Positions 7,477 through 39,792 of a DNA stretch of 46,190 nt are shown here, piece by piece; within the stretch, counting starts at the first letter, position 1; every line of letters starts with the position of its first letter. The position numbers were made by a program, and so were the translations under genes. Below the pieces are notes generated by a model, which was given only the letters and a program-made list of their open reading frames with translations, was not told the origin of the DNA and did no database searches. This DNA comes from Thermoplasmata archaeon (GTDB lineage: Archaea > Thermoplasmatota > Thermoplasmata > Methanomassiliicoccales > Methanomethylophilaceae), in assembly GCA_015063235.1 (NCBI GenBank), contig SUSW01000007.1, forward strand, positions 1-46,190, written 5' to 3'.

Positions 7477-8598
7477 ATGATTTCCCCTGAGTTCTTCTAC
7501 AAAGGACTGGAGCAGATGGGAGTGGGCTTCTTCACAGGAGTCCCTGATTCCCTCCTCAAACAGTTCTGCGCATATCTGAAAGACAACGTTCCCAAAGAGA
7601 GGAACATCATCGCGGCCAACGAAGGCTGCGCCGTGGGACTCGCTGCCGGCTATCATCTGGCAACCGGAAAGGTCCCGCTGGTCTACATGCAGAACTCGGG
7701 AATGGGCAATGCCACCAATCCCCTTCTCTCCCTGACCGATCCGGACGTGTACAACATCCCCCTGGTCCTGGTGATCGGATGGCGCGGAGAGCCCGGAGTG
7801 CACGACGAGCCCCAGCATGTCAAGCAGGGGAAGATCACATGCTCGCTTCTGGACACCATGGGCATACCGTATTCCGTGCTTCCCGAGGACGAGGAAGGAT
7901 GCAGGACCGTGCTTAAGGAATGCTCCGAGCATCTCTGCAGGAACAATTCAGCTTATGCGATAGTAGTCAGGAAGAACACTTTCTCGGATTACACCCCTGC
8001 GAAGAAGACCGAGGAAACCCCATATGAGATGTCCCGCGAAGAGGCGATAGAAGTCATAGCGAACAGGATGAAGGGTTCCCTGTTCGTATCCACCACTGGA
8101 ATGGCATCGAGGGAGCTGTACGAGATAAGGGACAGGAACGGGGAATCACACGAAAGCGATTTCCTCACCGTAGGCTCCATGGGGCATTCGTCTCAGATCG
8201 CATTGGGCATCGCCCTGAACCTTCCTGACCGCAGGGTGGTCTGCATAGACGGCGACGGAGCCGCGATAATGCACATGGGAGGGATGGCGACGATTGCATC
8301 GGAATCCCCCTACAACCTCACACACATCATAATCAACAACGGGGTCCACGACTCGGTAGGCGGACAGCCCACGGTATCACGCGAGATAGACCTTCATGAG
8401 ATCGCCGAGGCCATGGGATATGCCAACGTCTTCACCGTGGAGGACAGAGCATCTCTGGAAAAGGCCCTGGGATGCACGGAGGGCCCGGTGCTCATACAGG
8501 TCATGGTCCACCGCGGGGCAAGGAAGGATCTGGGAAGGCCCAAGTCCACCCCTGCCGAGAACAAGGATTCATTCATGAAAAACATAGGAAGCATCTGA
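7477..8598 (+). CDS. ppd: Phosphonopyruvate decarboxylase
   Basis: A thiamine-diphosphate enzyme of 373 residues. The N-terminal half carries GVPDSLLKQFCAYL and the catalytic-glutamate region AANEGCAVGLAAGYHLATG; the C-terminal half carries the ThDP/Mg motif GDGAAIMHMGGMATIA to INNGVHDSVGGQPT (about 258-292). It decarboxylates phosphonopyruvate to phosphonoacetaldehyde, pulling the unfavourable mutase equilibrium forward. It begins 5 nt after the mutase stop (ATG 7477) and ends 1 nt before the next gene, so the three are translated as a unit. The family length of about 370-380 fits the chosen start; the longer open frame upstream overlaps pepM. Confidence 0.93.
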   Translation: MISPEFFYKGLEQMGVGFFTGVPDSLLKQFCAYLKDNVPKERNIIAANEGCAVGLAAGYHLATGKVPLVYMQNSGMGNATNPLLSLTDPDVYNIPLVLVIGWRGEPGVHDEPQHVKQGKITCSLLDTMGIPYSVLPEDEEGCRTVLKECSEHLCRNNSAYAIVVRKNTFSDYTPAKKTEETPYEMSREEAIEVIANRMKGSLFVSTTGMASRELYEIRDRNGESHESDFLTVGSMGHSSQIALGIALNLPDRRVVCIDGDGAAIMHMGGMATIASESPYNLTHIIINNGVHDSVGGQPTVSREIDLHEIAEAMGYANVFTVEDRASLEKALGCTEGPVLIQVMVHRGARKDLGRPKSTPAENKDSFMKNIGSI

Positions 8599-8599
8599 T

Positions 8600-10432
8600 A
8601 TGATAGCTCAAGCAGTCATTATGGCCGGGGGCCTCGGTTCGAGGCTCGGCGATCGTACGAAAGCAATGCCCAAGGGATTCCTCGAGATCGGAGGGATGCC
8701 CATCGTGGAGCAGTCGGTCAGGAAGCTGATCGCCGCAGGGATCGAGGAGATCATCATCGGCACCGGATATCACAAGGAATTCTACGAGGACCTTGCGAAG
8801 AAGTACACATGCATCAAGCTGGCGCATAATGCAGCATATGCGGATGCCGGAAGCATGAGGACCCTCGCGGCATGTGTTCCTCTCGTCAAAGAGGACTGCC
8901 TCGTGCTGGAATCCGATCTCCTCTACGACAGCATCGGACTCAACGTGCTCATCAACGAGACCCGCAGGAACGTCATCCTGTCGTCCGGGAAGACCGGATC
9001 CGGGGACGAGGTCTATCTGCAGGTCGACAATGATTGCAACCTGGTCAAGCACTCCAAGAAGAAGGAGGAACTGGAATCCGTCTATTCCGAGCTTGTAGGG
9101 ATCACCAAGCTCAGCAGGAAGACATTGGACCTCATGGTCGCATATATGGACGATCACAGACAGGACATCCCCATGATGGAGTATGAGGTTGCGATGTCCG
9201 CCGTATCCTCATCCGGAAACCCCATAGCGGTCCGCAAGGTCGAATACTACACATGGTGCGAGATCGACGACGAGAACCATCTCAGGAGGGCTGTGGAGCA
9301 GATCTTCCCCCGCATCGCCGAGAATGAGTCCCTCCGCGGTATCCGCCGTGAAGTCCTCCTCAATCCGGGACCCGCCACCACGACTGACAGCGTCAAGTAC
9401 GCTCAGGTCCAGGCCGATATCTGTCCCAGGGAGAACGAGTTCGGGGACGTCATGGGCTGGATCTCGAAAGAACTGTCACTGATGGTGGGGGCGCCCGGAA
9501 GGGTCGAGACCGTACTGTTCGGAGGCTCCGGAACAGCGGGAGACGAGGCGATGATATCGTCATGCGTCCCCCAGGACGGGAAGCTCCTGATCGTCGACAA
9601 CGGCGCATACGGGAAGCGCATGGCCAAGATGGCCTCCATATACAAGATAAATTACGAGACCTTCGCCAGCGACGGCATTCACAGGATGGATGTCGAGGCC
9701 CTCAAATCAAGGCTGTTGGATGGGAAATTCACACATCTGGCTATTGTGTACCATGAGACCACCACAGGGATCCTCAACCCCGTTCCCGAGGTATGCAGGT
9801 TCTGCCACGAGCACAATATTGTCACCATCGTGGATGCGGTCAGCGCATTCGCTGCGATCCCCATTGACATGGACAGGGACTGCATAGACTTCATGTCATC
9901 CACATCCAACAAGAACATCCAGGGAATGGCCGGACTAGCGTTCGTGTTCTGCAGGAAGGAGGCGCTGGAGTCCATCAAGGACTATCCTATGAGGAACTAC
10001 TACCTCAACATATACGACCAGCACCACTACTTCATCAAGAACAACCAGATGAGGTTCACTCCCCCGGTCCAGACCGCCTATGCTTTGAGGCAGGCCATAA
10101 TCGAGACCAAGATAGAGACCATCGAAGGCAGGTACGAGCGTTACACGGCTTGCTGGAAAGTGCTGATCAAAGCGATCAAGGAGCTCGGGCTGGAGATGCC
10201 AGTTCCCGAATCGGAGCAATCGCATCTGATAGTCACCATAATGGACCCAAGGAGCCCGAAGTACTCGTTCAACGATATGCACGACCTCTCCAGGGAGCAC
10301 GGTTACACCATATATCCCGGAAAGCTGAGCGATGCCCCCACGTTCCGCATAGCGAACATAGGGGATATCAGACCCGAGGAGATGGAAGGATTCACCAAGA
10401 TCCTGGCGCAATATATGCGCTCGATCCAGTGA
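8600..10432 (+). CDS. pntC: Cytidylyltransferase / 2-aminoethylphosphonate-pyruvate transaminase fusion (PntC-AEPT type)
   Basis: A fusion of 610 residues. Residues 1-~240 are a sugar-nucleotidyltransferase-fold domain with the signature MAGGLGSRLGDRTKAMPK (8-25) and acidic metal residues near ESDLLYD. Residues ~248-610 are a class V aminotransferase like PhnW: LNPGPATTTDSVKYAQ, GGSGTAGDEAMISS, VDAVSAFAAIPID and SNKNIQG with the PLP lysine at 438. The transaminase makes 2-aminoethylphosphonate (AEP) from phosphonoacetaldehyde; the cytidylyltransferase half would activate it to CMP-AEP, as described for bacterial PntC enzymes. This points to AEP decoration of a glycan or lipid rather than phosphonate catabolism. 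The attaching transferase is not seen in this window. Confidence 0.88.
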   Translation: MIAQAVIMAGGLGSRLGDRTKAMPKGFLEIGGMPIVEQSVRKLIAAGIEEIIIGTGYHKEFYEDLAKKYTCIKLAHNAAYADAGSMRTLAACVPLVKEDCLVLESDLLYDSIGLNVLINETRRNVILSSGKTGSGDEVYLQVDNDCNLVKHSKKKEELESVYSELVGITKLSRKTLDLMVAYMDDHRQDIPMMEYEVAMSAVSSSGNPIAVRKVEYYTWCEIDDENHLRRAVEQIFPRIAENESLRGIRREVLLNPGPATTTDSVKYAQVQADICPRENEFGDVMGWISKELSLMVGAPGRVETVLFGGSGTAGDEAMISSCVPQDGKLLIVDNGAYGKRMAKMASIYKINYETFASDGIHRMDVEALKSRLLDGKFTHLAIVYHETTTGILNPVPEVCRFCHEHNIVTIVDAVSAFAAIPIDMDRDCIDFMSSTSNKNIQGMAGLAFVFCRKEALESIKDYPMRNYYLNIYDQHHYFIKNNQMRFTPPVQTAYALRQAIIETKIETIEGRYERYTACWKVLIKAIKELGLEMPVPESEQSHLIVTIMDPRSPKYSFNDMHDLSREHGYTIYPGKLSDAPTFRIANIGDIRPEEMEGFTKILAQYMRSIQ

Positions 10433-34351: not shown

Positions 34352-34598
34352 TCACTCTTCTGAAAATCTCTGCCTGACTTCTGCACGGATGTCAGCGGGA
34401 ATATAATCATCAATTACTTCATCGATCAGTATACCATTCTGCGTCAGCTTAAGGGCAATTTGGTATATTTCAGAAATCCTCTATTCCTTCATTTCCTCGT
34501 ATTGCTCCTTCGTATAGAGCTCCCCATCTTGGATAGCATCTTCAATGGCATGCTTGCCCCATGAAGCGTGAAGTTCCTCTTCTATCGACATCGATATC
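34351..34598 (-). pseudogene. Truncated second copy of the Rpn-type nuclease C-terminus
   Basis: On the minus strand from 34591 the sequence reads MSIEEELHASWGKHAIEDAI, QDGELYTKEQYEEMKE, stop (TAG), then RISEIYQIALKLTQNGILIDEVI and DDYIPADIRAEVRQRFSEE before TGA. This is the C-terminal part of the nuclease encoded at 34597-35673, without its heptad repeats and with one in-frame stop. A stretch of 54 nt (34545-34598) is identical to 34916-34969 in the intact gene. The remnant begins right at the intact gene's stop codon, so it is a tandem partial duplication or the leftover of a deleted neighbour gene. It lacks a nuclease domain and cannot be active by itself. Confidence 0.85.
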
Positions 34599-35673
34599 AC
34601 TCGTTTGTCAACTTCCTTCTGATCTCAGTACGGATGTCATCGGGAACGCACATATCTATCGCTTCATCCATCGGCATACCATTTTGAATCATCTTAAGGA
34701 CAATACGGTATATGTCGGCAATTCTCTTTGCCTTGACCTCCTCATACCGGTCTTTCATTTCCCCGTATTGGTTCTTCATTTCCCCGTATTGGTTCTTCAT
34801 TTCCCCGTACTGGTTCTTCATTTCCCCGTACTGGTCCTTCAACTCCTCATATTGACCTTTCACTTCCTCGTATTGGTCCTTAGTATAGATGTCACCGGCC
34901 TCGATACCGTCCTCGATGGCATGCTTGCCCCATGAAGCGTGAAGTTCCTCTTCTATCGACATCGATATCCCTCTTATCTGTCCGTAAATATAATCCGCGT
35001 CAGGGATATTATACTTGCTTTCCAGCCTTTCCGCGCGTTCTCTGTCATTCAGACCGCCCCCGAAAAGGGTGTTCAATACACCGTGGACAAAATCAGGAGA
35101 GTCATCGGGATCGCTTATGTTGATGGTGATGATGTGCTCCCTGTCATAGAAACAATCATCCGAATTCCTGTCACACAGAACATAATCCGTAACCTTGTTC
35201 CTATCCTTCTTGCTGGGGTCCAAGATCACCCAGAGACTCACCGTCTTACGCAGCCCGCTGTAATCCGACTTCTCGAAGTATATCCCCTTCTGATTTGAGA
35301 TCATCGTCGATGTGTAGTATACGGCACGGTCTATCAGAGAATAACCGCTGGGATTCGGGTCCCCCTGTCCCTCCAGATCCATCAGAATACCTATCTTACG
35401 GTTATCCGGGGAATCGATCTCGAAGAAGTTGTCCAGTTCTATCTTCTCGTTGTTAGCGTTGATGAACTCCGTATTGCCTTTGGCCACCTTCCTGCCTTCC
35501 CTGATGGGCAGACACGCACGGATCTCCTCGATCTCCATATCCCTGTACTCGTCCACCAGACCCTTCAGGATGGTGGCCAGGATGTAGGAGTCCTCCATGG
35601 CGTTCTTGAATATCGTATCTAGGTTTCCTTTATTCGATGATGCTCCCGTCGGGTTTTCGCTTCCGCTGATCAT
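34597..35673 (-). CDS. Rpn-family PD-(D/E)XK nuclease / putative transposase with heptad repeats
   Basis: A protein of 358 residues. The N-terminal part matches the Rpn/PD-(D/E)XK transposase family: DTIFKNAMEDSYILATILKGLVDEY, then INANNEKIELDNFFEIDS and the catalytic-type GILMDLEGQGD (D99, E101, Q103), followed by DRAVYYTSTMIS and LYVWVILD-like SLWVILDP. After GISMSIEEELHASWG comes a coiled coil of seven-residue repeats (about 263-313; QYGEMKN four times). Rpn proteins promote recombination and are mobile. No ribosome site is present; a TATA-like TTATTTACTT lies about 25 nt before the ATG, so it is probably leaderless. A truncated second C-terminus follows directly. Confidence 0.82.
   Translation of the reverse strand: MISGSENPTGASSNKGNLDTIFKNAMEDSYILATILKGLVDEYRDMEIEEIRACLPIREGRKVAKGNTEFINANNEKIELDNFFEIDSPDNRKIGILMDLEGQGDPNPSGYSLIDRAVYYTSTMISNQKGIYFEKSDYSGLRKTVSLWVILDPSKKDRNKVTDYVLCDRNSDDCFYDREHIITINISDPDDSPDFVHGVLNTLFGGGLNDRERAERLESKYNIPDADYIYGQIRGISMSIEEELHASWGKHAIEDGIEAGDIYTKDQYEEVKGQYEELKDQYGEMKNQYGEMKNQYGEMKNQYGEMKDRYEEVKAKRIADIYRIVLKMIQNGMPMDEAIDMCVPDDIRTEIRRKLTNE
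34733..34879 (-). repeat. Seven 21-nt tandem repeats inside the Rpn nuclease gene
   Basis: Units of 21 nt start at 34733, 34754, 34775, 34796, 34817, 34838 and 34859. The four from 34754 to 34837 are nearly identical; the outer ones have diverged. Each unit encodes seven residues of a coiled coil, so unit number can change by slippage without shifting the frame. Confidence 0.9.
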
Positions 35674-35913: not shown

Positions 35914-37206
35914 ATGCCCGTATTGCAGATAGCCTTGGATCTGATGCAACTGAACAGAGCCGTCGTCATAGCCCATGAAGCGGTGGACGGCGGAGCCGAC
36001 TGGGTCGAAGTGGGGACCCCTCTCATAAAGAGCGAAGGGGCGGAAGCGGTACGCACGCTCCGCAGGGAATTCCCCGGCAAGAAGATCATCGCCGACACCA
36101 AGACCATGGATGTCGGAGGCGTGGAAGTTGAGATCATGGCCAAAGCCGGTGCCAACATCATCACCGTGCTGGGTCTTTCCGAGGATTCCACCATAGAGGA
36201 GGCTGTCATGGCAGGAAGGAAGTACGGAGCGGAGGTCATGGTCGACATGATCAACGTCCCCGATAAGCTCCAGCGTTCAATCGAGGTCGAGAAGCTGGGC
36301 GTCGCATACATCTGTCTCCATATGGGCATAGACACGCAGATGAAGGGCGAGGAACCGCCCATCGACATCCTCAGGAAAGTCGTCGAAGCGGTATCCATAC
36401 CGATCGCGGTCGCAGGAGGCATCACGGCCGAGAGCGTAGGGCAGTATGTGGAGGCGGGAGCCACCGACATCATAGTCGGCGGGGCAATAATCAAGACAGG
36501 AAACATCAAGGAAGCCGCCGAGAACGTGAAGAAGGCGATGGCCGGAGCGAAGATCGATACGGGTATATCGAAGAAATACACCGAGGATCAGCTGTTCGAA
36601 GCATTTTCTAAAGTGTCCACATGCAACATATCTGATGCGTTCCACAAGCAAGGTGTCATGATCGGGATCCTTCCGCAGTCGCTGCAGCACAGGCAGAGGA
36701 TGGTCGGTCGCGCTCTGACGGTCCAGACAACCAACGGGGACTGGGCCAAGCCTGTCGAGGCGATAGACCATGTGAAGAAAGGCGATGTCATAGTAGTGGA
36801 TGTCGGCGGAGCCCCCGTTGCGGTATGGGGCGAGCTCGCCACATGCTCTGCGATGGTCATGGGTGCCGCAGGTATCGTCATAGACGGCGCCATAAGGGAC
36901 ATCGATGACATCAGGGATCTGAAGTTCCCGGCGTTCTCGAGGACAGTCGCACCCTGTGCAGGCGAACCCAAAGGATACGGGGGAATCGGTATCGAGGTCA
37001 CCGTCGGGGGCCAGAAGGTCAGGACGGGAGATTGGATCATAGGTGACGAGAGCGGAATCGTCGTGGTCCCGAAGGAAATGGCCGTGGAAGTGGCCAACCG
37101 TTCCCTGGATGTCCATGAAAGGGAGAACCGTACGAGAGAAGAGATCAAAAGGGGATCCACTCTCTCGAAGGTAAATGAATTGTCAAAATGGGAACCCGTT
37201 CAGTAA
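35914..37206 (+). CDS. 3-hexulose-6-phosphate synthase fused to an RraA-like domain
   Basis: A fusion of 430 residues. Residues 1-~208 are hexulose-6-phosphate synthase (OMP-decarboxylase fold): LQIALDLMQLNRAV, the metal/catalytic DTKTMD (61-66), CLHMGID and IAVAGGITAESV. Residues ~225-430 are an RraA-like domain (STCNISDAFHKQGVM, GDVIVVDVGG, AAGIVIDGAIRDIDDI, GDWIIGDESGIVVVP). In archaea lacking the oxidative pentose pathway, the synthase run in reverse with 6-phospho-3-hexuloisomerase makes ribulose 5-phosphate and formaldehyde. The RraA-like half may be an aldolase/decarboxylase or lyase of unknown substrate; the name ribonuclease regulator is historical. No isomerase partner is adjacent. 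Confidence 0.88.
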   Translation: MPVLQIALDLMQLNRAVVIAHEAVDGGADWVEVGTPLIKSEGAEAVRTLRREFPGKKIIADTKTMDVGGVEVEIMAKAGANIITVLGLSEDSTIEEAVMAGRKYGAEVMVDMINVPDKLQRSIEVEKLGVAYICLHMGIDTQMKGEEPPIDILRKVVEAVSIPIAVAGGITAESVGQYVEAGATDIIVGGAIIKTGNIKEAAENVKKAMAGAKIDTGISKKYTEDQLFEAFSKVSTCNISDAFHKQGVMIGILPQSLQHRQRMVGRALTVQTTNGDWAKPVEAIDHVKKGDVIVVDVGGAPVAVWGELATCSAMVMGAAGIVIDGAIRDIDDIRDLKFPAFSRTVAPCAGEPKGYGGIGIEVTVGGQKVRTGDWIIGDESGIVVVPKEMAVEVANRSLDVHERENRTREEIKRGSTLSKVNELSKWEPVQ

Positions 37207-38090
37207 TAGTGACGGGTCCCGTTGAGCTCCTCATCGAGCTTCTTGAGCCTCTCGATACGCTCTGCGGTCGGAGGGTGAGTACTGAAGAGAGCAGCGAATG
37301 CAGAGACCTTCTTCAGTCCGAATGGATTGCTGATCCACATGCCCGCACTGGATGTGTTGCTGTAATCGTTGGATTGGGCAGAGCATCCCGTTTCCAGCCT
37401 GATGAGGGCGTTCGCCAATGCCATGGGCTTGCCGGTCAGCCTTCCCCCGGCCTCGTCGGCGTAGTACTCCCTGTTCCTCGAAATTCCCAACTGGACGAGC
37501 ATCGCTGCGAATGGCAGGGTTATGTCCGCTATGATCGCGATTATCAGACCCGAGGGGTTGTCCCTGTCGTTGAAGATCGCGCTCCAGACCGCCATCCTTG
37601 TGACGAACGTGATCATAGATGCCATCGCCGATGCTGCGGACATCACGAAGATATCTCTATGCTTGACGTGTGACAGCTCGTGCGCCAGCACTCCTTCGAG
37701 CTCATCATCGGAAAGCAGGTTCAGAAGGGGCCTTGTAGCTACGACCGCCGCATTGCTCGGACTGCGCCCGGTAGCGAACGCATTCGGCATGTTAACCTCT
37801 GATATTCCGACCTCAGGCATGGGAAGCCCCGCCTTCTGGGAGAGCCTGTAAACGGTGTCGTAGAGCCTGGGCTCCTCCTCGCGTGATATGATATGGACGT
37901 TGTTCGCCCTCAGCGCCATCTGTTTGGAGAAGAAGAACGAGGCGAACGTGATCATCAGGGATATGCCCAGCATCACATAGAATCCGACCCAGGTGTTGTT
38001 GAATATCGCACCTACCACGGATCCCAGTGCGACTAGGATACCCGTCATAGCGACGAACATGAATGCCGTCCTAAAATGCCATTGCCACAT
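37200..38090 (-). CDS. htpX: HtpX-like M48 membrane metalloprotease
   Basis: A protein of 296 residues. Two N-terminal helices, then SEVNMPNAFATGRSPSNAAVVATRPLLNLLSDDELEGVLAHELSHVKHRD with the zinc motif HELSH (137-141), two more helices, and the third ligand region NREYYADEAGGRLTGKP. HtpX proteases degrade damaged membrane proteins on the cytoplasmic side. Start ATG 38090 is chosen because the family begins shortly before the first helix; the open frame continues to 38183. The 3' end overlaps that of the HPS-RraA gene by 7 nt (convergent). A TATA box (TTTTTATA on the minus strand near 38120) precedes it. Confidence 0.9.
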   Translation of the reverse strand: MWQWHFRTAFMFVAMTGILVALGSVVGAIFNNTWVGFYVMLGISLMITFASFFFSKQMALRANNVHIISREEEPRLYDTVYRLSQKAGLPMPEVGISEVNMPNAFATGRSPSNAAVVATRPLLNLLSDDELEGVLAHELSHVKHRDIFVMSAASAMASMITFVTRMAVWSAIFNDRDNPSGLIIAIIADITLPFAAMLVQLGISRNREYYADEAGGRLTGKPMALANALIRLETGCSAQSNDYSNTSSAGMWISNPFGLKKVSAFAALFSTHPPTAERIERLKKLDEELNGTRHYY

Positions 38091-38211
38091 TTCGATCGAT
38101 AAGGATTTGTTAGTACTTGTATAAAAATATATCTGATAATCGGACACAGACGTCGTACTTATAGGGATCAAGATACGATTCACTGAAACTCACTGGAATG
38201 AAGAAGGGAAT

Positions 38212-38284
38212 GCCGGTAACGGCGGGGGTCGAACCCGCACACCCATGCGGACATGGGTGCTCTGCCGAGAGCCACGTTACCGGC
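38212..38284 (-). ncRNA. tRNA-like domain (not a standard tRNA)
   Basis: Cloverleaf with a 10-bp outer stem, where a tRNA has 7, a 6-nt loop in the anticodon position (GTCCGC), a 6-nt D-loop-like loop without the usual AG start, and a fully standard T-arm (TTCGACC fits TTCRANY). Spacer lengths between arms (2, 0, 2 nt) are tRNA-like. An automatic tRNA search may call this a low-score or pseudo tRNA. I treat it as the 3' domain of the larger RNA. Confidence 0.55.
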
Positions 38285-38359
38285 TGGTTAACGGATGCTG
38301 CAGTTGTCTGCGCCGCCACCTTGGCGGTGGTCGGCCAGCTTGACGCTGTGCGACGATCG

Positions 38360-38410
38360 CGGCAGCGAACCCAGTCCCCGACCCCTGGTGGGCCGCGGGA
38401 CTTTGCCTGC
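38360..38410 (-). repeat. Direct repeat in the RNA region, copy 2
   Basis: This 51-nt stretch and 38511-38560 are near-identical, differing at about five positions. On the minus strand each contains AGTCCCGCGGCCCACCAGG, then GGTCGGGGAC, forming a GTCCC/GGGAC stem with an inner GCCC-ACCA-GGGG loop, flanked by GCAGG and GCTGCCG that can pair as GCAG/CTGC. Probably a repeated structural domain. Confidence 0.8.
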
Positions 38411-38510
38411 TGTGTTGTGACGATCGGTTCCATTGCTGCATAATGCGCGGGGGTCGAACCCGCTCCCCCTGCGTGAGACGCAAGGTTCTGCCGAGAACTG
38501 ATCTGATGGC

Positions 38511-38560
38511 CGGCAGCTAACCTGTCCCCGACCCCTGGTGGGCCGCGGGACTGTGCCTGC
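38511..38560 (-). repeat. Direct repeat in the RNA region, copy 1
   Basis: Partner of 38360-38410, starting 151 nt further upstream in the transcript. Changes between copies fall mainly outside the inner stem. Confidence 0.8.
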
Positions 38561-38643
38561 TGCGGTTATTGCTAACCCTGGTGCCTCACACCGCTGCCCC
38601 CCAGGGGGCGCGGTTGGGGCTGCTTATGTCCGAACGGGCGCTG

Positions 38644-38660
38644 CACCAGCGTGGTGCTGG
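38644..38660 (-). repeat. 17-nt hairpin repeat, copy 2
   Basis: CCAGCACCACGCTGGTG on the minus strand, identical to 38734-38750. It can fold as CCAGC-ACCAC-GCTGG or as CACCA-CGC-TGGTG. Both copies are preceded by TCGAGCT. Confidence 0.8.
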
Positions 38661-38733
38661 CACAGCTCGAAGCTGAACGGACTGATACGGACCATGATCA
38701 TATTATGCGAACCGCACGGGTGCTGAACCCGCT

Positions 38734-38750
38734 CACCAGCGTGGTGCTGG
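38734..38750 (-). repeat. 17-nt hairpin repeat, copy 1
   Basis: Identical to 38644-38660. It is followed by a third T-arm-like hairpin, GCGGG-TTCAGCA-CCCGT (38716-38732). Confidence 0.8.
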
Positions 38751-38910
38751 CGAGCTCGATGAGCTATGACGGTTGTACAACAGATATTCCGTTAACGCGC
38801 AGGACTTTCGCCTGCGCCCAAGTCTCCGAAGCCGCTTGTGGCGGTGACGGTCGACAATCCTACAAACGAGGAGTTGTTTTCTCTTGGTCGAAAATAGACT
38901 TGGTTTGTGA

Positions 38911-38921
38911 GTATATAAAGG
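38911..38921 (-). promoter_or_regulatory. TATA box of the structured RNA
   Basis: CCTTTATATAC on the minus strand. An archaeal start point 25-27 nt on would fall near 38890, exactly where the AT-rich spacer gives way to GC-rich, hairpin-rich sequence. Confidence 0.55.
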
Positions 38922-39039: not shown

Positions 39040-39783
39040 TCATTTCAACTGGTAGACGTTGCCGACGTAAAAGTCGTTGACCCCTTCAAGGCCCAGATGG
39101 ACCCTGAGATTGACGATACCGTCCCTTCCGACGCAGTGGTTGATGTAGAGCTCCGGGATGGATTCCAACATCTCCGCATATTCCTTAGCGACAGGCTTCT
39201 TCTTCTTTTCAAGGAAGACCGGTCCGATGAATACGGTGATCTTCTTGCCGATGTGCTCCTGCACGTCGGAGATGACCTTATCGGGCATGCACGAGCAGCG
39301 TCCGCTGATCAATGCGACCTTCATACCGTCTTCCACGACGAGGAACGTCTCTCCGTATCCCTTTTCGTCGTAGAAGAAGGGTGTGATGTGAATACCGGGA
39401 AGGACCTCCGTCCATACTCCGATGTCATGGAAAACAGTCTTTCCCATGTTCTCCTCGGACAGCCCGGTCCTTGACAGCAGCGTCCTCTTCCCGTACAGTC
39501 CTTCGGGACAGTGGACATCGATGGATGAGGATCTGTTCTTCAGGAGGCCGTTGAGACCTCCCGAGTCGCATGGATTGCTCTGGGAAACGACGACCAGATC
39601 GATGGAGTCCGGTTCGATGCTAAGCCATTCCAGATTGTGTGCAAGGTATCTGGGGCGCATACCTGTGTTGAAAAGTACCCTCTTCCCGTCCTTCTCGATG
39701 AGCATGGCGGTGCCTTTGGCGCCGATCAGACTGGTACCGGGTATAGAGCCCTCGTCGTAAACACATGTGATCTTCGTCGTCAT
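39040..39783 (-). CDS. MBL-fold protein with a lost metal-binding motif
   Basis: A protein of 247 residues resembling the MBL subgroup that includes methanopterin-related dihydropterin synthases: FNTGMRPRYLAHNLEWLSIEPDSIDLVVVS...SGGL, GMKVALISG and YINHCVG. In active members the text between VVVS and GGL is HGHWDHT; here it is QSNPCDS (68-74), so all histidines of the HxHxDH motif are gone. It is probably not a zinc hydrolase and may bind a ligand or partner. The start at 39783 rather than 39789 is preferred because GAGGT lies 6 nt before it. It is the second gene of a pair with the TatD-like hydrolase, 9 nt apart. Confidence 0.75.
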   Translation of the reverse strand: MTTKITCVYDEGSIPGTSLIGAKGTAMLIEKDGKRVLFNTGMRPRYLAHNLEWLSIEPDSIDLVVVSQSNPCDSGGLNGLLKNRSSSIDVHCPEGLYGKRTLLSRTGLSEENMGKTVFHDIGVWTEVLPGIHITPFFYDEKGYGETFLVVEDGMKVALISGRCSCMPDKVISDVQEHIGKKITVFIGPVFLEKKKKPVAKEYAEMLESIPELYINHCVGRDGIVNLRVHLGLEGVNDFYVGNVYQLK

Positions 39784-39792
39784 CGTCATACC

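Follow-up and report, generated by a model that had tools for sequence, protein, structure and literature searches.

Bacteria and phages are the sources of the best-known large ornate RNAs. In bacteria, Y RNAs of YrlA type contain tRNA-like modules, tmRNA and viral tRNA-like structures have a tRNA-like 3' domain, and the sponge RNAs CsrB and RsmZ display one hairpin loop motif many times per RNA. GOLLD and ROOL are large, heavily structured RNAs of bacteria and phages with Rfam models of their own. According to the accessible part of one study, GOLLD is built of one conserved and one less conserved region, tRNAs sometimes lie in its linker, and both RNAs are often found near tRNA islands (PMC12286853).

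The RNA described here is encoded at 38893-38205 (-) of a window from an archaeon of the Methanomethylophilaceae, the window being the whole stretch of 46,190 nucleotides that was analysed. Like GOLLD and ROOL it is large and heavily structured, but its host is an archaeon, its constant part is a 5' head of about 70 nt, and the body that follows ranges within its family from almost nothing to more than 1 kb. The Rfam models of GOLLD and ROOL gave no match in the window or in the further loci; the new RNA seems nearest to them in style, without detectable relation. It shares tRNA-like modules with the Y RNAs of YrlA type; however, it has no Rfam match, and no Ro60/TROVE gene was matched in this genome, which is 87% complete, so a Y RNA route is unlikely. 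Repetition of one loop recalls CsrB and RsmZ, but that loop is ACCAN here and GGA there, and the common 5' head, the tRNA-like modules of some members and the archaeal host are further differences. The tRNA-like 3' domain is reminiscent of tmRNA and of the viral structures; unlike in tmRNA, no coding part or tag was seen in the window RNA. The preliminary description of this locus had set aside both tmRNA and RNase P, and rightly so: ARAGORN found no tmRNA, and the archaeal RNase P RNA of this genome lies elsewhere (G000:C47:41237-41531, 203.6 bits). The Rfam search proposed there, run here with Rfam 15, found no known-RNA family at the gathering cut-off in the window.

Architecture and locus of the window element

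The region 38893-38205 (-) is strongly folded and apparently non-coding; it lies behind a TATA box and contains duplicated hairpins as well as four tRNA-like modules. Its G+C content is 63%, against 53% for the window. The minimum free energy is -322.9 kcal/mol (z -8.2), equalled by 0 of 20 shuffles; a repeat run with 10 shuffles gave z -8.9, and 120-nt windows inside the element gave z between -3.1 and +1.1. Because the plus strand folds slightly better overall (-329.5), folding energy cannot pick the strand of the element, and the T-loops, the TATA box and the paralogues assign it to the minus strand. Its parts are:

38912-38919 (-): TATA box TTTATATA, from the sequence; the TATA core begins 29 nt before the head
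38817-38888 (-): conserved head, a three-way junction; helices from the fold, with family model and counts
38887-38883 / 38822-38818 (-): head P1, CCAAG / CUUGG, from the fold
38877-38854 (-): head P2 hairpin, from the fold
38850-38826 (-): head P3 hairpin, with UCGACC (38854-38849) and GGAGA (38827-38823)
38797-38817 (-): hairpin right after the head, GCGCAGG/CCUGCGC, p 0.99
38788-38796 (-): closing helix of the body, 5' strand GUUAACGGA; 9 bp with 38287-38295, inverted repeat I1
38709-38775 (-): tRNA-like module 3, with acceptor AACCG/CGGUU (p 0.41), ACCAC hairpin and T-arm-like hairpin; alignment and fold
38628-38682 (-): tRNA-like module 4, with acceptor GUCCG/CGGAC (p 1.00) and ACCAC hairpin (p 1.00); alignment and fold
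38513-38563 (-): repeat hairpin R1, ACCAG loop; direct repeat D1, fold and loop
38438-38504 (-): tRNA-like module 2, its 5' acceptor strand apart at 38708-38702; acceptor p 0.49
38363-38412 (-): repeat hairpin R2, ACCAG loop; repeat, fold and loop
38287-38295 (-): closing helix of the body, 3' strand UCCGUUAAC; inverted repeat and fold
38212-38284 (-): tRNA-like module 1, at the 3' end; ARAGORN, fold and alignment

The TATA box at 38919-38912 (-) confirms the one noted in the preliminary description, and the 5' boundary given there (38890) was nearly right, the conserved head beginning at 38888. The long-range helix that had been suspected to close the structure is well predicted (38796-38788 with 38295-38287, mean pair probability 0.98), a figure that comes from the fold of one sequence, with no body homologue found.

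By alignment, the four tRNA-like modules form two paralogous pairs, 1/2 and 3/4. Module 1 agrees with the 3' cloverleaf reported earlier: ARAGORN reads 38212-38282 (-) as 'tRNA-???' with an incomplete anticodon. It has a 10-bp acceptor, a short D arm with GG and a canonical T arm, the two arms being among the weaker helices (p 0.41 and 0.54). A 7-nt anticodon loop with an anticodon is absent from it; the fold puts a tetraloop on a 7-bp stem in that place. Modules 1 and 2 have D-loop and T-arm sequence in common, and by eye their middle arms are unlike in sequence and both pair. The 17-nt T arm was already known to be identical at 38222-38238 and 38447-38463, and a third copy, at 74%, lies at 38716-38738. 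The D stem shows a paired substitution between modules 1 and 2, GCUC/GAGC to GUUC/GAAC (by eye on alignment and fold). Modules 3 and 4 have the ACCAC hairpin in common, and their acceptors (AACCG/CGGUU versus GUCCG/CGGAC) differ, by eye, through paired substitutions; module 4 aligns as a paralogue of module 3 in which half the T arm is lacking. Hairpins R1 and R2 match each other at 95%, and the further repeats mentioned earlier comprise 42 nt present twice at 95% and 18 nt present twice at 100%. By eye, the core of the R hairpins looks similar to the anticodon arm that the tRNA-Cys-like units in member C, described below, possess.

At a lax Rfam threshold, Tymovirus tRNA-like matches fell on modules 1 and 2 (E 0.048 and 0.052; 21.7 bits versus a cut-off of 40), the rest being at chance level. 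The tRNA model gave 42 matches in the whole genome, 41 of them above its cut-off (29 bits), and the window modules (C54) are absent from these 42. On the 14 further loci, Rfam reported tRNA alone, with 8 matches, 3 of them inside members, and on L132 and L133 it gave 7 tRNA matches, 3 of them within member C; the matches over the tRNA cut-off in other members are thus three in C, two in L196 and one in L198. In a comparison that took 30 of the 42 tRNA loci, the remainder being read directly, the best own-genome match of the window T arm was to tRNA-Gly(ccc), nearly identical over 15 nt, whereas the anticodon loop is missing or malformed in the window modules. A match of this length is too short to show whether the modules arose from an own-genome tRNA.

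The element lies between a gene at 39040-39789 (-) and an M48 peptidase gene at 37200-38183 (-). The former has no Pfam or NCBIfam match, and its product is taken as a putative metallo-beta-lactamase-fold protein. A homologue of it was found in 28 of 30 genus relatives; the M48 gene lies within the fetched flank in 24 of these 28 and is adjacent to it in 22, a pair that the element interrupts here. By our own reckoning the gap between the two genes is about 45-100 nt in 22 of the 24 relatives, and in L049 and L057 the two genes are 0.6-0.9 kb apart, with what by eye looks like coding sequence between them; L033, L034, L038 and L055 have other genes at the flank of the upstream gene (by eye). 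No counterpart of the element was found at these places, inspection of the 22 short gaps being that of L035.

Pfam was run on 10 window genes, and the neighbours with a match look like host genes; they encode, among others, the small subunit of an archaeal primase, an SRP54-type GTPase and a prefoldin subunit. Together with the archaeal RNase P RNA and the pylS gene of a relative in the order, these agree with a host in the Methanomassiliicoccales. Judging from genes read by eye and from these Pfam results, the loci seem unlike prophages, and blastn of three members against phages returned tRNA-like or chance pieces and nothing else. One window ORF, 34597-35673 (-), has a weak match (E 3e-4) to a transposase of the PD-(D/E)XK nuclease family, short of the curated cut-off. 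Separately, a member at L202 (1501-1567, G069:C116) directly precedes a gene 78% identical to the OMPdecase/RraA gene of the window (35914-37206), which is about 1 kb from the window member; the two members are on opposite sides of the gene.

A family with a common head and promoter

A DNA search for the window member found it in none of 59 relatives. Short pieces alone appeared in the 30 genus relatives (E 0.035 or worse) and in phages and plasmids, and two pieces of 35 and 30 nt from 388 other genomes of the phylum were rejected, as they read by eye as coding sequence. A model of the 42-nt repeat recovered its own two sites and nothing else in 147 genomes, and patterns of the body had no match in viral contigs. 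An 18-mer of the repeat hit 25 bacterial stretches among genome contigs; the first 40 BLAST matches listed for it were all short pieces. Patterns of the head hit 55 and 46 stretches of viral contigs (100 distinct loci), of which model R3, introduced below, kept one, L138 (26.9 bits, E 0.006); this locus was pattern-selected, has apparent coding sequence downstream and was judged a chance match.

Two paralogues of the window element came to light through the tRNA search of the genome, which picked out three tRNA-Cys-like units on C21 and, weakly, a match on C17. Common to them is the 5' sequence GTCGACC...GGAGACTTGG, with a TATA-like box at a similar distance. Model R2, built from three heads, added four members from 31 genomes of the genus (E 7e-4 to 0.06), and model R3, built from seven, returned 18 rows, spread over 7 of 147 genomes from the order. 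One row was dropped, L199 (1501-1567, -; G065:C13:226777-226843; 24 bits, E 0.09), because chance matches are expected at this E-value in 147 genomes and no TATA core was seen at the right place. The family then counts 17 members in 6 of the 147 genomes, in four genera of one family: five in the genome of the window (G000), seven in G069, which belongs to another genus, two in G012 and one each in G028, G081 and G123. Seven of the 17 are the training sequences of R3 and ten were not used to build it. Their R3 E-values run from 6e-15 to 3e-4, except for L204 of the window's genome (0.05), which was kept, in a choice made after looking, for its three helices, the hairpin behind its head and its TATA core; without it the counts become 16/16. 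The window head, one of the seven training sequences (and one of the three of R2), scores 61.6 bits in R3 (E 5.7e-12).

Among 389 genomes drawn across the phylum, matches fell in G000 and G081 alone, and 141 of the 147 genomes of the order, many of them drafts, have no member under strict filters. Since the filters are strict above 40 genomes, this absence is weak evidence. The rejected L199 match, probably a chance one, precedes a tRNA and a pylS gene (PylS_Cterm, 272.9 bits); if it were real, the family would be tied to the pyrrolysine system.

Our results showed that the head covaries, in line with the check on homologues proposed in the preliminary description. At P1 and P3, a structure-free alignment of seven heads has 13 double-change cells against 4.5 +/- 1.8 expected (0/500 shuffles), for a structure predicted from that same alignment; in A10, an alignment of all 17 fitted to the model, there are 24 against 8.5 +/- 2.3 (0/500 shuffles). 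When the partners are slid by one column, 45-53% of cells are paired, down from 93-94%. With just the first three heads, covariation was not above shuffles (340/500), and the energies of single-head folds are not unusual (z -0.6, -0.5 and -2.4). P2 shifts register and was excluded from the covariation counts; it or a similar hairpin appears by eye in 15 of 17 single folds, the exceptions being L133 and L203.

The promoter is part of no model. A TATA-like core begins 26-30 nt before the head in 17/17 members, including all ten non-training ones, and in any other 10-nt bin of the 130 nt upstream such a core occurs in at most four members; the list of TATA-like words is loose and was drawn up after viewing the upstream sequences. 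A stricter TATA consensus is matched near -30, at 7/7 positions, in 4 of 17. The constant spacing of the TATA-like core counts as indirect evidence for the transcript that the preliminary description called for.

The window element is thus a member of a family with a constant three-way-junction head, a TATA-like core at fixed spacing, a hairpin and a variable body, and we hold that this family is almost certainly real and expressed. The earlier reading, an undescribed large structured archaeal RNA with tRNA-like domains, is supported; the family, its common head and its swappable bodies are what the present analysis adds to that single locus. The open-licence literature yielded no published description of the family, as far as the accessible parts of its papers go (including PMC4153887, PMC12286853 and PMC2864571). 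In 2014, a study of Methanomassiliicoccales genomes used Rfam to predict their non-coding RNAs (PMC4153887), and prediction of that kind would miss the present family.

Bodies of variable length and content

In the members read by eye, a hairpin follows the head. Beyond it the bodies vary in length: two members seem to end near nt 115, and others extend to about 1.2 kb. The first run of at least four T lies at about nt 115 in L203 and L206, 171 in L202, 469 in L196, 498 in F, 698 in L200, 1020 in D, 1158 in C and 1219 in L197; the other eight members have none within their chosen extents, which, like the lengths that follow from them, were set by eye and partly from these T-runs.

The bodies often consist of repeated modules, whether tRNA-like cloverleafs, ACCAN pentaloop hairpins or other repeated hairpins. 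In 10,551 nt of members we counted 16 T-loop hairpins versus 0.14 expected and 17 ACCAN pentaloop hairpins versus 0.44 expected (maximum 2 in 200 shuffles for each). The former occur in seven members (A, B, C, E, L196, L198 and L202, one of the two in B being doubtful) and the latter in six or seven (A, B, D, L200, L201, L205 and doubtfully L202, where the case overlaps the D arm). As controls, the rest of the window (both strands, 45.5 kb) holds 3 T-loop and 6 ACCAN cases, and a further 27.7 kb from elsewhere in the genome holds 2 ACCAN cases. Folding z-scores of the 17 members range from -8.9 to +0.5, and E (-1.1), L198 (-1.1) and L202 (+0.5) fold no better than shuffles.

Member C (L132, G000:C21, -) contains three tRNA-Cys(gca)-like units at 7904-8448, scoring 51-53.5 bits. 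Another tRNA-Cys gene is present elsewhere in the genome (L123). At 8450-8740, C also has, by eye, tandem hairpins of GGGTCANNCCC type, a third kind of repeated module. In L196, L198 and L202 the terminal modules show a compact D arm of GGUCCGGGAACC type, by eye like that of the tRNA beside pylS in L199, a weak lead for the bolder reading given below. B and L200/L201 have a 3' hairpin in common (by eye).

The genes beside members differ between most loci. Members F and G, however, which come from two species, have neighbour genes that are homologous (65.6% identity over 294 aa); their aligned bodies have 114 predicted pairs, 23 with both sides changed, a raw count with no shuffle control. The F/G consensus is partly wrong, since it lacks head P1 and pairs part of P1 elsewhere. 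At 4 of the 14 further loci (L190, L196, L204 and L206) a true tRNA gene (Lys, Gln, Thr and Thr, respectively) is found no more than about 0.2 kb from the head or from the presumed 3' end.

Possible roles of the RNA

The reading that we prefer, with a probability of a little under 0.4, is a trans-acting scaffold or decoy that joins a constant head to swappable, multivalent modules; the five explanations weighed here overlap in part, and their probabilities should be read accordingly. The RNA would be transcribed on its own, starting at the head, and would act in trans as a multivalent RNA. Its head may be the site recognised by one constant partner, or may assemble or protect the RNA, and the body may offer several tRNA-like surfaces, or copies of one loop, to the usual binders of tRNAs or of such loops, these presented surfaces giving it the role of scaffold or decoy. 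Several observations point this way, among them the covarying head, the TATA-like core of all 17 members, the repeated loops of the bodies and the paired changes between paralogous modules. The window modules have no normal 7-nt anticodon loop and are therefore unlikely to decode, the differing neighbour genes at most loci speak for action in trans, and a body that turns over quickly while its head stays fixed would seem to track a changing target. Against the scaffold or decoy we count L203 and L206, which are seemingly without an array, so that the core must do something without one; F and G, which have neither ACCAN nor T-loop hairpins; the three members that fold no better than shuffles; and the 141 of 147 genomes without a member. 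In addition, with 51-53.5 bits, three modules of C make good candidates for tRNA-Cys(gca), and some modules could therefore be working tRNAs.

A bolder version, which we put forward tentatively and think doubtful as it stands, would make the family a modular archaeal RNA class: a promoter-linked core of about 115 nt with lineage-specific, fast-evolving arrays of tRNA mimics or repeated loops, trapping or scaffolding the machinery that binds tRNA. Its targets could be tRNA-attacking effectors of parasites or tRNA-processing enzymes.

We consider it unlikely that the RNA instead forms an RNA-only assembly as GOLLD and ROOL do, the head and long-range helices building a homo-oligomer or cage with the tRNA-like modules as cargo or surface. 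The size is similar, the structure heavy, a long-range helix closes the body, and one conserved part is joined to one variable part, much as in the two-region build of GOLLD; tRNA genes lie close to 4/14 further loci, and PMC12286853 places ROOL and GOLLD often near tRNA islands, with tRNAs sometimes in the GOLLD linker. However, no Rfam match to GOLLD or ROOL was found, two members are only about 115 nt long, and by eye the loci seem unlike prophages.

Several copies per genome at unrelated loci, and a patchy spread over genomes, are what a non-autonomous mobile or selfish element would produce, with the head and promoter marking a unit copied to new intergenic sites and the tRNA-like parts serving its life cycle. 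The absence of the window copy from the same place in genus relatives and the rearrangement of bodies by duplication would fit as well. We nevertheless rate such an element as improbable: copies within a single genome mostly have very little in common beyond the head, F and G beside their homologous genes (65.6%) look as though they descended in place, inspection by eye revealed neither terminal repeats nor target duplications, and no enzyme gene travels along.

The ACCAN hairpins could also make the RNA a sponge for one RNA-binding protein that recognises these pentaloops, as CsrB-type RNAs sequester CsrA. Up to four such hairpins per RNA, on different stems (A, B and D), and further ones in L200, L201 and L205, i.e. 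in three genomes, would suit a sponge; yet C, E, F, G, L196, L197, L198, L203, L204 and L206 have none and the single case in L202 is doubtful, overlapping the D arm, which makes this a poor prospect for the family. Finally, decaying arrays of odd tRNA genes behind a common leader, with no function as one RNA, would account for modules that look degenerate (module 1 with its defective anticodon arm, module 4 with half of its T arm lost) and for the three tRNA-Cys-like units of C, but are very improbable given a covarying head and promoter in 17 members, ten of them without any T-loop hairpin, and the paired changes between paralogous modules and between the F and G bodies.

The family is apparently undescribed: none of the tests made here tied it to a known family, although more loosely it can be grouped with the orphan structured RNAs. 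Its conserved core is clear, its members form a natural series of lengths between about 115 nt and about 1.2 kb, an archaeal genome can hold several copies, and in such a design the binding of the core and the binding of the modules are two separable questions. It is also a warning for tRNA annotation: some extra 'tRNA-Cys' genes in such genomes sit inside these RNAs.
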